From positions 1-31,572 of IMG/VR virus record IMGVR_UViG_3300031825_000057: DNA of 31,572 nt; one strand, written 5' to 3'. Position numbers and translations under genes: made by a program. The DNA is from a virus. Below, in pieces: positions 8,810-23,810 of this stretch (within the stretch, counting starts at the first letter, position 1; each line of letters starts with the position of its first letter). The notes under the pieces were generated by a model. The model was not told the DNA's origin. It made no database searches and saw nothing but the letters and a program-made list of their open reading frames with translations.

Positions 8810-9117
8810 CACGGCGTGCCCTTCAGTGCGTCGCGCACGTCCTGCTGGATCTTGGCGAGCGGGTTGGCCAGGCGGTCGACGGCGGCGCGCCGGCGGATGT
8901 CGGCCAGGAACGGCTCGCGTGCGGGCTTCCAGATCTCGGGGTTGTTGGAATGGCGCGGCGGGTGCTGGTACTGGGGGTGCTGCCACCAGCTCGCGCCCAT
9001 GGCGGCGATGGCGGTGCAGCGCGCGGCGTAGTAGCTGTCGCTCTCACCCGGCAGGCGGGCGACTTCGACGGGCGGCTGGGCCGGCGGGAGGGCCAGGCGC
9101 AGGGCGGGGCGACTCAT
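8809..9117 (-). CDS. Unknown early protein (102 aa)
   Basis: The protein has a proline-rich start, then DSYYAARCTAIAAMGASWWQ and a charged helical end (REPFLADIRRRAAVDRLA). No family recognised. The ATG at 9117 overlaps the upstream stop (ATGA), and its own stop overlaps the secreted-protein start. The sequence around its start belongs to a repeated gene-junction motif seen again at 9602 and 9838. Confidence 0.65.
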   Translation of the reverse strand: MSRPALRLALPPAQPPVEVARLPGESDSYYAARCTAIAAMGASWWQHPQYQHPPRHSNNPEIWKPAREPFLADIRRRAAVDRLANPLAKIQQDVRDALKGTP

Positions 9118-19063: not shown

Positions 19064-19441
<378 letters not shown>

Positions 19442-19444
19442 GCT

Positions 19445-19840
19445 ATGCGACTTCAATACATCGACACGGACTGCCGATCGGGCCCATACCCCGTGCCAGT
19501 CGGAGTCTGCATCGATGCGAAGAGTTGGGCCGCTGAGATGAAGCGGCTCGGGCTGGTTGGGGAAGGGCAGTTCTACGATTACACAGATCACCATCGGAGA
19601 ATCGTCAATGCAGACGGCTCGATCCGGTGCTATGTATGCTTCCCCAAGCTGCATCAATTGCCGTCGTTGGGCGCACAGATAGAGGCGATCGCGCATGAAG
19701 CGATGCACGCCTGGCAGTCGATCCGCGATCACATCAACGAACGCACCCCGGCTCATGAGCAGGAGGCCTACATGGTCGGGTGGATCACGGCGTGGGTGTT
19801 CGGGCAATTGAACGTGGCCGGGCTGTTGAAGCGGAAGTAG
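19445..19840 (+). CDS. HExxH-motif phage protein
   Basis: A 131-residue protein with the zinc-protease-like motif HEAMH (residues 84-88) inside QIEAIAHEAMHAWQSIRDHI, and a downstream acidic EQEAY (105-109) that could supply a third ligand. Two Cys (RCYVCFP) precede the motif. Similar small HExxH proteins occur in head regions of many phages, with function unknown; the fold may be a minimal gluzincin-like domain or a non-catalytic relative. The ATG at 19445 lies 3 nt after the previous stop. Confidence 0.7.
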   Translation: MRLQYIDTDCRSGPYPVPVGVCIDAKSWAAEMKRLGLVGEGQFYDYTDHHRRIVNADGSIRCYVCFPKLHQLPSLGAQIEAIAHEAMHAWQSIRDHINERTPAHEQEAYMVGWITAWVFGQLNVAGLLKRK

Positions 19841-19875
19841 GAGCTGCGCGGCGGCGCCTGGATAGGCCCGCCATA

Positions 19876-19937
19876 AAAAGTTGTCGCAGCTTCTGCCTAG
19901 AAATGCGACAAGCGCCTCTGCACAGTGCGGGACTATG
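19876..19937 (+). promoter_or_regulatory. 5' hairpin element, copy 1
   Basis: TTGTCGCA (19881-19888) pairs with TGCGACAA (19904-19911) around a 15-nt loop containing TGCCTAGAA. CACAGTGC follows (19921-19928), then the ATG of the gpW-like gene at 19935. The same element, with the same 54-nt distance from dyad start to start codon, precedes the protease/capsid gene. Confidence 0.85.
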
Positions 19938-20141
19938 TCCTTCACAACCGCAGACCTTGCAGCGCTCGACCGCGCTATCGCGGCCTCTGAGCTCGAAGTC
20001 GAAGTCGCAGGCCGCCGTGTCAAGTTCGACAGCTTCGATGGCCTGAAGGCGCGGCGCGACTTTGTCGCTGCGCAGCTGGCCGAGGTCTCGCGGCCGACCG
20101 GCTCCTTCCGCTACCGCTTCACCACCTCGCGGGGCGACTGA
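19935..20141 (+). CDS. Head-tail joining protein, gpW-like
   Basis: A 68-residue protein (MSFTTADLAALDRAIAASEL; then VEVAGRRVKFDSFDGLKARR) with the length and two-helix/beta-hairpin pattern of lambda gpW-type connectors. gpW sits in the portal ring and is needed before tail joining. The start at 19935 is chosen for GCGGGA upstream and because the hairpin element lies at a fixed distance. The stop overlaps the portal ATG. Confidence 0.8.
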   Translation: MSFTTADLAALDRAIAASELEVEVAGRRVKFDSFDGLKARRDFVAAQLAEVSRPTGSFRYRFTTSRGD

Positions 20142-21697
20142 TGGCCGCTAACGCGCTGGACCGAGTCATCGGCTACTTCGACCCCAGCAGCGCGCTGCGG
20201 CGCGTCGTCGATCGCATCCGCCTGCAGCGGGCTTACGAGGCCGCCAGCCCGCGCGATACATGGAAGCCGCGCCGTGGCGGTGCCAGCGCCCAGGCCGATC
20301 ACTTTGCCGACGCCACAATGCTGCGCGCCAAAGCGCGCGCCCTGGTGCAGAACGTGCCTTACATCGCCAGCAGCATGGACGCGCTGGTGGCCAACGTCAT
20401 CGGAACCGGCATCATGCCGCGCTTCACCGGCGACCAGGGCGACAAGCTGAACAAACTGTTCGCGCAGTGGGCCGACGTCTGCGACGCCGACGGCCGGCTC
20501 GACTTCTTCGGCATGCAGGCCGCCGCTTACCGCGCCATGGAGCAGGACGGCGAAGTGCTGGTGCGGTTGCGCCCGCGCCGCCCGGCCGACAACCTGCCGG
20601 TGCCGCTGCAACTGCAGCTGCTTGAAATCGACTGGCTGGACAGCACCCGCAATTCGCTGCTGGGCGGCAGCGCCGGTGTGCCCGCCGGCAACGTGGTGAT
20701 CGAAGGAATCGAATACGACTCGATCGGGCGCGTGGCCGCATACTGGCTATGGGACCAGCATCCCGGCGACGCCACGCTGCTGCGGGGTTTTCGCAACTTC
20801 AGCAAGCGGGTACCGGCCTCGAGCATCATCCACTTGTTCGATCCCAAGCGACCGGGGCAGGGTCGCGGCATCACGCGCCTGGCGCCGGTAATCACGCGCA
20901 CCCGCGACACTCAGCTCTACGAAGACGCCGAGATCGCGCGCAAGAATTTGGAAGCGCGCCTGTCGGTGCTCGTCAGCGGCGACGCCTCGATGATGGCCAA
21001 CGAGAATCAGCTGCTCGCCACCGGCAACGGTGCGGCAGACACCAACGCCGCCCGTCGCACTGGCGATCTTGGCGAGTTGGCCAGCGGCAGCATCACCGAA
21101 GTGCCTCCCGGAAGCACCATCGAGACCGTGGAGCCGAAGGCCGCGGGCGGGTACGTCGAGTACGTCAAGCACCAGTTGCACATCATCACTGCGGCGCTGG
21201 GGGTCACTTACGAGATGGCCACCGGCGACATGAGCGAGGTCAATTTCAGCAGCGCGCGCGTGCGCCTGCAGGACGTGCGGCGCGGCTTCGAACACACGCA
21301 GTGGATGATCGTCATCCCGCGCCACACCCGACCGTGCGCCGACGCCTTCGCCCGCGCGGCAATCGACGCAGGCAAGGTACCCGAGGGCGCGAAGTACGTG
21401 CTCGAGTACGACACGCCGAAATGGGACTACGTCAACCCGGCGCAGGAGGCCAACGCCGACGCGCTGCAGGTGGCCACCGGCCTATCCAGCCTCAGCGCCA
21501 AACTGCGCGCGCGCGGCGAGAACCCCGACAAGGTGTTCGCCGAGATCGGCGCCGACTTCAACCGGCTGGGCGACATGAAGGTCGGCAACCAGTCGGTGCT
21601 CGACATCCTGTTCTTCCTGCAAAAGGGTTCGGTTCGAATGGCTGATCTGGCCGCGGACGATGGCGCGCCTGCCAGCGGGAAGGCGGCGAAAAAATGA
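20141..21697 (+). CDS. Phage portal protein (lambda family)
   Basis: The 518-residue product matches lambda gpB-type portals: DRIRLQRAYEAASPRDTWKP, ARALVQNVPYIASSMDALVA (stem region), GIMPRFTG, LEIDWLDSTRNSLLG, FDPKRPGQGRGITRL and GVTYEMATGDMSEVNFSSAR. The portal forms the dodecamer through which DNA enters and leaves the head. Its ATG at 20141 shares a base with the gpW stop (TGATG). Many lambda-like portals are followed by a separate protease; here a protease/capsid fusion follows after a hairpin element. Confidence 0.92.
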   Translation: MAANALDRVIGYFDPSSALRRVVDRIRLQRAYEAASPRDTWKPRRGGASAQADHFADATMLRAKARALVQNVPYIASSMDALVANVIGTGIMPRFTGDQGDKLNKLFAQWADVCDADGRLDFFGMQAAAYRAMEQDGEVLVRLRPRRPADNLPVPLQLQLLEIDWLDSTRNSLLGGSAGVPAGNVVIEGIEYDSIGRVAAYWLWDQHPGDATLLRGFRNFSKRVPASSIIHLFDPKRPGQGRGITRLAPVITRTRDTQLYEDAEIARKNLEARLSVLVSGDASMMANENQLLATGNGAADTNAARRTGDLGELASGSITEVPPGSTIETVEPKAAGGYVEYVKHQLHIITAALGVTYEMATGDMSEVNFSSARVRLQDVRRGFEHTQWMIVIPRHTRPCADAFARAAIDAGKVPEGAKYVLEYDTPKWDYVNPAQEANADALQVATGLSSLSAKLRARGENPDKVFAEIGADFNRLGDMKVGNQSVLDILFFLQKGSVRMADLAADDGAPASGKAAKK

Positions 21698-21705
21698 TCC
21701 GCTCG

Positions 21706-21767
21706 AAAAATTGTCGCAGCGTTTGCCTAGAAATGCGACAAGCACATCAGCACAGTGCAGGCTCATG
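21706..21767 (+). promoter_or_regulatory. 5' hairpin element, copy 2
   Basis: TTGTCGCA (21711-21718) pairs with TGCGACAA (21734-21741), with loop TGCCTAGAA as in copy 1 and CACAGTGC after it (21751-21758). The ATG at 21765 lies 54 nt after the start of the dyad. About 47 of 57 bases match copy 1, with invariant stems and loop core. Confidence 0.85.
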
Positions 21768-23810
21768 ACCAAGCCGCACACCCCCACGCCCAGCGCCCGC
21801 GCCGTAGCGGACATGCCGATCCAGTTGCGCGAGGCGCAGATCGTTCCGGCCAGCTTCAACGAGGCCGAGCGCACAGTCGACGTGGTGTGGACCACCGGCT
21901 CGCGCCGCCGCGCCTACGACTGGTACAACGACACACCCTACGAAGAGGAGCTTGTCGTCACCACGGATGCCGTGGACATGAGCCGCTTCGAGGCGGGCAC
22001 CGTGCAGGTGCTCGATGCGCACCGCGTGTACGGCGGCGTCGCCGGCATCCTGGGCATCGCGACGCGCGGATCCATCGAGGGCGGCGAAGGCAAAGCCACG
22101 CTGCGCCTCTCGGGAAATCCCGCCAACGCGGGCATCGTCGGTGACATCAAGGACGGGATCATCCGCGCCATCAGCTTCGGCTATTCGGTTCAGCGATACG
22201 AGATCACCCGCGCCATCGACCGTACCGACGGCGTGAACATGCCGCTGTACCGCGCCGTCGCCTGGACGCCGCAAGAAATCAGCTTCGTGCCGGTGCCGGC
22301 TGACGCCAACGCATCCACCCGTTCCCAACCCTCGCGCGGCGCGCCGTGCGAATTCATCCGGGCCGCCGCCCATTCTTCGAAAGAACCCACCATGACCGAA
22401 GCTGAACTTCAAGCCCAGCGCGACCAGGAAGCGGCGACCCGTGCCGCCACCAGCAACGCTGCCACCGGCGCCACGGCCCCCGCCGCCGCCGCTACCACTG
22501 GCGCCGCTGCCACCGCAGCCGAGCGCCAGCGCGCCGCCGACATCACCGCGCTGTGCACCCGCCACCAGGTGCCCGCCGACAAGGCCACCAAGTACATCAC
22601 AGACGGCACGTCCGTCGATGCCGTGCGCACCGCCATCCTGGACGATCTGGCCACGCGCGACGCCGCGGCCGGCAACGGCGCGCGCAACGTCACCCGCGTG
22701 CACACCGTCAGCGACGAAACCCAGACCCGCATGGCCGGCCTGGAAGAGGCGTTCACGCATCGCGTCGACGCGAGCGTCAAGCTCACCGACAACGGGCGCC
22801 AGTACCGCGGCATGAGCCTGATGGAGATGGGCCGCGAGCACCTGGAGCGCAGCAACGTCGACACGCGCGGCATGGACCGCATGACGCTGGCCACGCGGAT
22901 CCTCACCTTCCGCTCGGGCGGCTCCCTGTCCACCAGCGATTTCTCCAGCCTGCTGGCCAACGTCGCCAACAAGCGTCTGCGCCAGGGCTACGAGGAAAAC
23001 CAGCCCAGCTACCAGCGCTGGGCCCGCCGCGCGCCCGACGCGCCGGACTTCAAGTCCATGAGCGTGGTCAACCTGGCCGGCGCGCCCGACCTGCTGCAGG
23101 TCAATGAGCACGGCGAGTTCAAGTACGGCGCCATGACCGACGGCAAGGAAACCTATTCGATGCTGACCTACGGGCGCATCGTCAGTCTCACGCGCCAGGC
23201 GCTGATCAACGACGATCTGCGCGGCTTCGACCGCCTGGTCGGCGCCTTCGGCAACAGCGCGGCTCGCCTGGAAAACCGCACCGTGTACTCCATCCTGACG
23301 GCCAATGCGGCACTCAGCGACGCGGTCGCTCTGTTCCATGCCACCCACGCCAACCTGGCGGGCGTCGGTGCCAAGATCGACGTTACGACGCTGGGCGCGG
23401 GCCGCGCTGCGATGCGTCTGCAAAAGGGCCTGCAGGGCGAAGAGCTCAACCTGGCGCCTTCGTACCTGATCGTGCCCGCCACGCAGGAGAACCTGGCGTA
23501 CCAGTACACCAGCGCCAACTACGTGCCGCTGCAGCCCGACAAGGTCAACGAGTTCCGCGCCGGTGGCCGCACCGCGGTGGAGCCCATCGTCGAGGCCATC
23601 CTGGACGCCAGCAGCACCACCGCCTGGTACCTGGCGGCCAACACCGGCCAGGTCGACACGGTGGAGTACTGCTACCTGCAGGGCGCTGCCGGCCCGGTCA
23701 TCGAGTCCGAGATGGGCTTCGAGGTCGACGGCATCTCCTACAAGTGCCGGCTCGACTTTGCGGCCAAGGCCATCGACTTCCGCGGCATGTACAAGAACCC
23801 CGGCGCCTGA
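21765..23810 (+). CDS. Prohead protease / major capsid protein fusion
   Basis: The 681-residue product joins two head functions. Residues ~20-190 are a U35-type prohead protease: His86 (LDAHRVYGG) and Ser137 (RAISFGYSV) are the likely catalytic pair. An Ala/Thr-rich linker, probably the scaffold/delta region, runs from ~210 to 260. The rest is the HK97-like or Mu gpT-like capsid subunit: LTFRSGGSLSTSDFSSLLAN, RRAPDAPDFKSMSVV, MLTYGRIVSLTRQALINDDL, and ending GFEVDGISYKCRLDFAAKAI. The ATG at 21765 follows the hairpin element. An internal ATG at 22392 (residue 210) could yield a capsid-only product of 472 residues. Confidence 0.92.
   Translation: MTKPHTPTPSARAVADMPIQLREAQIVPASFNEAERTVDVVWTTGSRRRAYDWYNDTPYEEELVVTTDAVDMSRFEAGTVQVLDAHRVYGGVAGILGIATRGSIEGGEGKATLRLSGNPANAGIVGDIKDGIIRAISFGYSVQRYEITRAIDRTDGVNMPLYRAVAWTPQEISFVPVPADANASTRSQPSRGAPCEFIRAAAHSSKEPTMTEAELQAQRDQEAATRAATSNAATGATAPAAAATTGAAATAAERQRAADITALCTRHQVPADKATKYITDGTSVDAVRTAILDDLATRDAAAGNGARNVTRVHTVSDETQTRMAGLEEAFTHRVDASVKLTDNGRQYRGMSLMEMGREHLERSNVDTRGMDRMTLATRILTFRSGGSLSTSDFSSLLANVANKRLRQGYEENQPSYQRWARRAPDAPDFKSMSVVNLAGAPDLLQVNEHGEFKYGAMTDGKETYSMLTYGRIVSLTRQALINDDLRGFDRLVGAFGNSAARLENRTVYSILTANAALSDAVALFHATHANLAGVGAKIDVTTLGAGRAAMRLQKGLQGEELNLAPSYLIVPATQENLAYQYTSANYVPLQPDKVNEFRAGGRTAVEPIVEAILDASSTTAWYLAANTGQVDTVEYCYLQGAAGPVIESEMGFEVDGISYKCRLDFAAKAIDFRGMYKNPGA

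Follow-up and report, generated by a model that had tools for sequence, protein, structure and literature searches.

Repeated dyads before the connector and capsid genes of a phage as putative operators of Mor-type activator-dependent late promoters

Genes and dyads of the head region

The window is the whole stretch of DNA analysed here, 31,572 bases from one virus record. On its plus strand, the terminase gene ends within a 125 aa HTH regulator gene of the Mor family (positions 19064–19441, recognition helix IHRATVYR). A connector gene (head-tail adaptor Ad1, gpW-like) is found at positions 19935–20141 with a match to phrog_2545 (6.5e-16), and a major head and protease fusion gene is situated at positions 21765–23810 with matches to phrog_4523 (1.4e-224) and Phage_capsid_4. 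The portal gene lies between the two sites described below.

Two perfect dyads, TTGTCGCA-N15-TGCGACAA, are present at positions 19881–19911 (site 1) and 21711–21741 (site 2), both on the plus strand, where a sequence-only reading had placed them at 19881 and 21711. The half-sites are GTCGCA (19883–19888) and TGCGAC (19904–19909) in site 1 and GTCGCA (21713–21718) and TGCGAC (21734–21739) in site 2. The start codons at 19935 and 21765 lie 54 nt from the beginning of their dyads, CACAGTGC is present at 19921 and 21751, and a T-run is absent at both dyads, all of which agrees with what that reading had claimed. It had also described an element of about 57 nt; two copies do exist, but the conserved unit is longer and consists of an A-tract, the arms, the interior and a -10 box. 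The A-tract is found at positions 19875–19879 in site 1, where it is a possible partial UP element, and at positions 21706–21710 in site 2. Each dyad contains a weak -35-like hexamer, TAGAAA (19898–19903 in dyad 1, 17 bp from the -10 box, and 21728–21733 in dyad 2). The -10 box of the putative connector-gene promoter is CACAGT at positions 19921–19926 with a predicted +1 at about 19932–19935, and that of the putative protease/capsid promoter is CACAGT at positions 21751–21756 with a predicted +1 at about 21762–21765. All of these signals are on the plus strand.

When the window was searched for a 27 nt pattern that combines the arms and the core, tolerating as many as 3 mismatches, just these two dyads were recovered, and shuffled sequences gave an average of 0.02 matches. 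A third site following the arm and -10 rules with up to 2 mismatches was not found in the window.

Other sequence features were observed in the window. A 131 aa open reading frame at 19445–19840, between the regulator gene and site 1, displays the sequence HEAMH (HExxH, zinc-peptidase-like), and its sole matches are phrog_1365/882, which are of unknown function. At positions 19096–19143 a tandem GCCGTC repeat is translated as a Ser-Pro repeat within the regulator's N-terminal part; it is absent from aligned relatives. On the minus strand, a 29 nt repeat is found at 9113, 9600 and 9836 at the ends of three successive small genes, which have in common a C-terminal ATGSTS/ATGSAS sequence and a GGGAGCACGTCATGA start/stop overlap. 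This looks like a repeated translation-coupling cassette.

Copies of the element in related phages

Exact-pattern searches of viral and genome contigs were too strict and yielded one match (L003), and it was protein searches that revealed the family. With the protease and portal proteins as queries, 135 loci were obtained, and further loci came from regulator searches. The 217 distinct copies, read in gene sense, were gathered by exact arms, so the conservation of the arms is partly by construction. The general form of the element is GT[C/T/G]NCA, 12–16 nt, and the inverted arm. There are 110 distinct copies before the connector gene and 100 before the protease/capsid gene, and the same two places are occupied in more than 100 contigs with diverged interiors. 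The relatives are mainly Burkholderiales phages and prophages, and named hosts are Delftia, Acidovorax, Rhodoferax, Massilia, Undibacterium and Curvibacter. The stems, claimed to be invariant, are so within the window, i.e. in two copies from one phage, but across relatives the arms vary, in step with the adjacent regulator. Within a phage, the two copies are alike in arm type and in the length of the spacer (71 of 71 phages), as is expected if one protein reads both copies.

Most of 48 whole contigs scanned carry two copies. Five of the 48 have a third copy before other late open reading frames, one of which matches a phage holin family (Phage_holin_8, 2.1e-6); the remaining ones are putative lysis genes, being lysis-like by eye. 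The nearest named phage, Stenotrophomonas phage S1, shows no such dyad at either place, and a comparison of the regulator with named phage records gave no match.

More distant sequences were also observed. L003 comes from a distantly related phage whose head module is of another kind, and has a single GTCGCA site (1469–1495), an ARST helix and a Pfam Mor match of 1.6e-11; its -10-like sequence, GACAAT, is displaced by 1 nt. More distant Mor-like proteins from bacterial genomes (L243–L250) have no such element within 1.2 kb downstream, and their sites may be of another geometry. In L083 (coordinates of about 1480–1590), the region before a protease/capsid gene has the right half-site (GTGAGAC) alone, with no clear partner at the usual spacing.

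Promoter signals and start codons

The -10 box is situated 12–17 nt after the right arm in 97–99% of copies. Positions 12–17 read TANNNT in connector copies (T 0.91, A 0.99, T 0.99) and mostly CANANT in protease copies (A 0.97, T 0.98). A at position 13 combined with T at position 17 is found in 99% of connector copies (n = 110) and 97% of protease copies (n = 100) vs 2.6% of background positions. At a spacing of 17 bp, the dyad interior shows at least 3 of 6 matches to TTGACA in 88 of 115 cases, with far fewer at other spacings. Most copies display a weak -35 of this kind (3–4 of 6), e.g. TGGAAA, GGGAAA, TAGAAA and similar sequences. The conserved loop core is thus explained by a weak -35 inside the dyad. 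On the other side, an A-tract precedes the left arm; among 197 distinct copies, position -5 relative to this arm is an A in 96%. Numbered from the predicted +1, the dyad extends from about -50 to -24.

The predicted +1 follows the arm by 24 nt; the majority of start codons are found at 24–26 nt, mostly 6–8 nt past the -10 box. A Shine-Dalgarno sequence of at least 4 nt is found for 14 of 174 start codons that lie 20–27 nt after the arm. Among other genes, it is present in all 32 tail tube controls, in 3 of 4 cement genes and in 7 of 16 copies of the attachment gene. The -10 and Shine-Dalgarno counts derive from related phages. With the start codon at the predicted +1 and usually no Shine-Dalgarno sequence, a leaderless mRNA is predicted. 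Where the start codon is distant, the -10 box does not follow it: five third copies keep the -10 position with the open reading frame starting 55–79 nt away, and in some connector genes and third copies start codons are 39–79 nt away with the -10 box unmoved. The constant 54 nt in the window would thus be best explained by start codons placed at the transcription start, and not by an RNA leader. It had been argued that a normal promoter would not fit between the dyad and the start. This does not hold: given a leaderless or near-leaderless mRNA, there is room for a -10 box between the dyad and the ATG.

The Mor-family regulator and its recognition helix

A profile of the regulator family has matches to Mu Mor (1rr7, 6.9e-9) and Mu C (3.8e-4), and the alignment of the regulator sequence covers most of the Mor chain, the HTH included. 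Three relatives tested exceed the cut-off of Pfam Mor PF08765 (1.6e-11, 3.1e-9 and 1e-7), and the window's own regulator alone is below this cut-off. Of the 102 connector copies with enough upstream sequence, 100 are immediately preceded by a Mor-like gene, and the distance from the end of the HTH domain to the left arm has a median of 7 nt. At the protease copy a Mor-like gene adjoins in 1 of 99.

The recognition helix, written x1-R-x2-T-V-Y-R, was compared with the arm, written GT-p3-p4-CA, in 112 distinct pairs. In these pairs x1 = H goes with p4 = G in 7 of 7, and x2 = A or P goes with p3 = C without exception. x2 = R pairs with p3 = G (GTGCCA, GTGACA; also L078) and x2 = V with p3 = T (L221; L172), and with x2 = T the p3 base is mixed C/T/A. 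The helix/arm types are His with GTCGCA, Ser/Gly with GTCTCA, Arg with GTG.CA and Val with GTT.CA.

Changes in helix and arm were followed on a tree built without the two helix residues. The best tree shows 4 changes for x1 = H and 5 for p4 = G, 7 for x2 in T/V/R and 6 for p3 not C, and the directions agree; only 2–3 of the helix/arm switches are on branches with good support, a number too small for a sign test to reach significance. One well-supported small clade contains L080 and L072 (HA, GTCGCA), L184 (GA, GTCTCA) and L178 (SR, GTGACA). A second, likewise well supported, contains L195 and L211 (SR, GTGCCA) with L221 (SV, GTTTCA). In both clades, then, specificities differ among the members and the arms differ accordingly. 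In a later sample, L240 and L242, the latter a distant protein, fit the rule, and the helix SRST with GTTCCA and GTTTCA (L239, L241) breaks it. The same sample adds N as a residue found with G (L238), besides H. The helix/arm recognition code is thus real, although it has exceptions. One of the options raised from the window had been that the dyad is a DNA site for the Mor-like protein encoded at 19064, and this option is strongly supported by the co-evolution of arm and recognition helix.

Comparison with known systems

The middle promoter Pm of phage Mu has two 5-bp repeats with a 6-bp spacer and a centre at -43.5, and almost no -35 (1–2 matches) (PMC4390567, PMC4287176); an A/T-rich region lies upstream of the Mor site (PMC4390567). 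Pm and the present sites share a Mor-family protein, a dyad over or in place of the -35 region, a recognisable but poor -10 and an A/T-rich upstream flank. Unlike Pm, the present sites have 6-bp half-sites, a 12–16 bp spacer, a centre near -36/-37, a weak -35 inside the dyad and a start codon at the predicted +1. They also differ in being putative promoters of head genes and possibly lysis genes, whereas Pm is one middle promoter. Of the features that define Mor/C promoters, the dyad at the -35 region and the recognisable -10 are found here, and an absent -35 and the Mu geometry are not. Since the Mu geometry was tested and is lacking, the protein family is assigned to Mor/C and the promoters are treated as a new variant.

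The Mu late promoters Plys, PI, PP and Pmom use the activator C and a shared dyad, and neither Mor nor C activates the other's promoters (PMC4287176). The arrangement proposed here is similar to that of C in that a Mor/C-family protein would serve several late promoters through a shared dyad. It differs in dyad geometry and in that the head module is lambda-like and has the regulator gene between its terminase and connector genes; one regulator gene is seen and a Mor-to-C cascade was not found.

Cluster K mycobacteriophages carry a 13-bp start-associated sequence that could pair with rRNA and has been proposed to act in translation (PMC3203893). These start-associated and extended start-associated sequences are also repeated inverted-repeat elements placed right before start codons, of many genes in that case. 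The present element differs from them in its -10 box, the lack of a Shine-Dalgarno sequence and the Mor-like regulator.

Proposed mechanism and alternatives

We consider both dyads to be operator parts of promoters that depend on the phage's own Mor-family activator and give leaderless or near-leaderless mRNA, with a probability of about 0.85. A Mor-family dimer, or higher oligomer, encoded at 19064–19441 would read the two 6-bp half-sites GTCGCA, which flank the weak -35 hexamer. The bound regulator would recruit the host main RNA polymerase to the poor -10 box, CACAGT. Transcription would begin at the ATG or within about 3 nt of it, so that the connector (19935) and protease/capsid (21765) mRNAs would be leaderless or near-leaderless. 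Some relatives would have a third promoter of the same type before a putative lysis gene. Conservation of the element, the fixed -10/-35 spacing, the link to the regulator gene, the co-evolution of helix and site, and the identical arms and spacing within a phage are what sequence comparison establishes. Binding, the sense of the regulation (activation, not repression), the precise position of the start site and leaderless translation are what we infer.

The same DNA site and protein could instead serve repression, or both activation and repression, e.g. if late head promoters are shut in lysogens. The dyad overlaps the -35 region, which is also a place where repressors bind, and the regulator gene adjoins its own site. 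However, both hexamers are poor, so low basal activity is expected, and the characterised Mor/C proteins are activators (PMC4390567, PMC4287176). A repressing regulator is therefore unlikely.

It had also been suggested that the dyad acts at the RNA level, as a transcribed 5′ hairpin serving as a translational repressor or processing site for the head genes. Perfect stems near start codons are consistent with this, as are hairpins in a 101 nt context with a folding z of about -1.7 and -2.0, but the isolated 63 nt elements fold no better than shuffles. Compensatory stem changes, the check proposed for such an element, do occur between phages. They are equally predicted by a symmetric dimer on a DNA palindrome and so do not decide between RNA and DNA; stem covariation by itself cannot separate an RNA hairpin from a DNA operator. 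In the plausible imperfect copies the mismatches are mainly A-C, C-A, A-G and C-T instead of G-U wobbles, with one G-T (a few of the imperfect matches listed are chance ones). Inner positions, the first inner pair excepted, pair no more than shuffled columns, and the bases just outside the arms are mostly unpaired, the commonest pair being C-A. Rfam 15 gave no match over either dyad at E-values up to 10. The predicted transcription start comes after the dyad, the -10 box keeps its distance from the dyad even in third copies with a distant start codon, and the arm sequence tracks the HTH recognition helix. In view of the mismatch types, the lack of inner covariation, the Rfam result, the promoter signals and the third copies, control by RNA structure is thus unsupported and appears very unlikely.

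A packaging or replication signal, i.e. a pac-like site for recognition by a protein of the virion or by the terminase, might be suggested by the position of the first copy shortly after the terminase and Mor-like genes. Such a role is highly improbable, as there are two or three copies per genome, each with a -10 box and a late gene, and the site type follows the Mor-like helix. Chance duplication or a mobile repeat, which two near-identical copies in one genome could suggest, can practically be dismissed given the more than 100 contigs with diverged copies at the same two places and the 0.02 expected by chance.

Implications for late gene control

The best reading of the sequences is that these are Mor-type activator-dependent late promoters of a new geometry. 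An earlier description of late control in this phage group was not found in the papers searched. The activator and its promoters would give a testable late-gene control circuit for the group. Leaderless translation is predicted for a highly expressed capsid gene, which to our knowledge is unusual in proteobacterial phages. The relatives offer a natural series of activator/promoter pairs with a site specificity that may be read from two helix residues. On balance, it seems probable that the members of a large Burkholderiales phage family each use one Mor-type activator as a late head-gene switch, with a partly readable two-residue/two-base code whose repeated changes would have left naturally insulated activator/promoter pairs, and that their connector and capsid mRNAs are leaderless.
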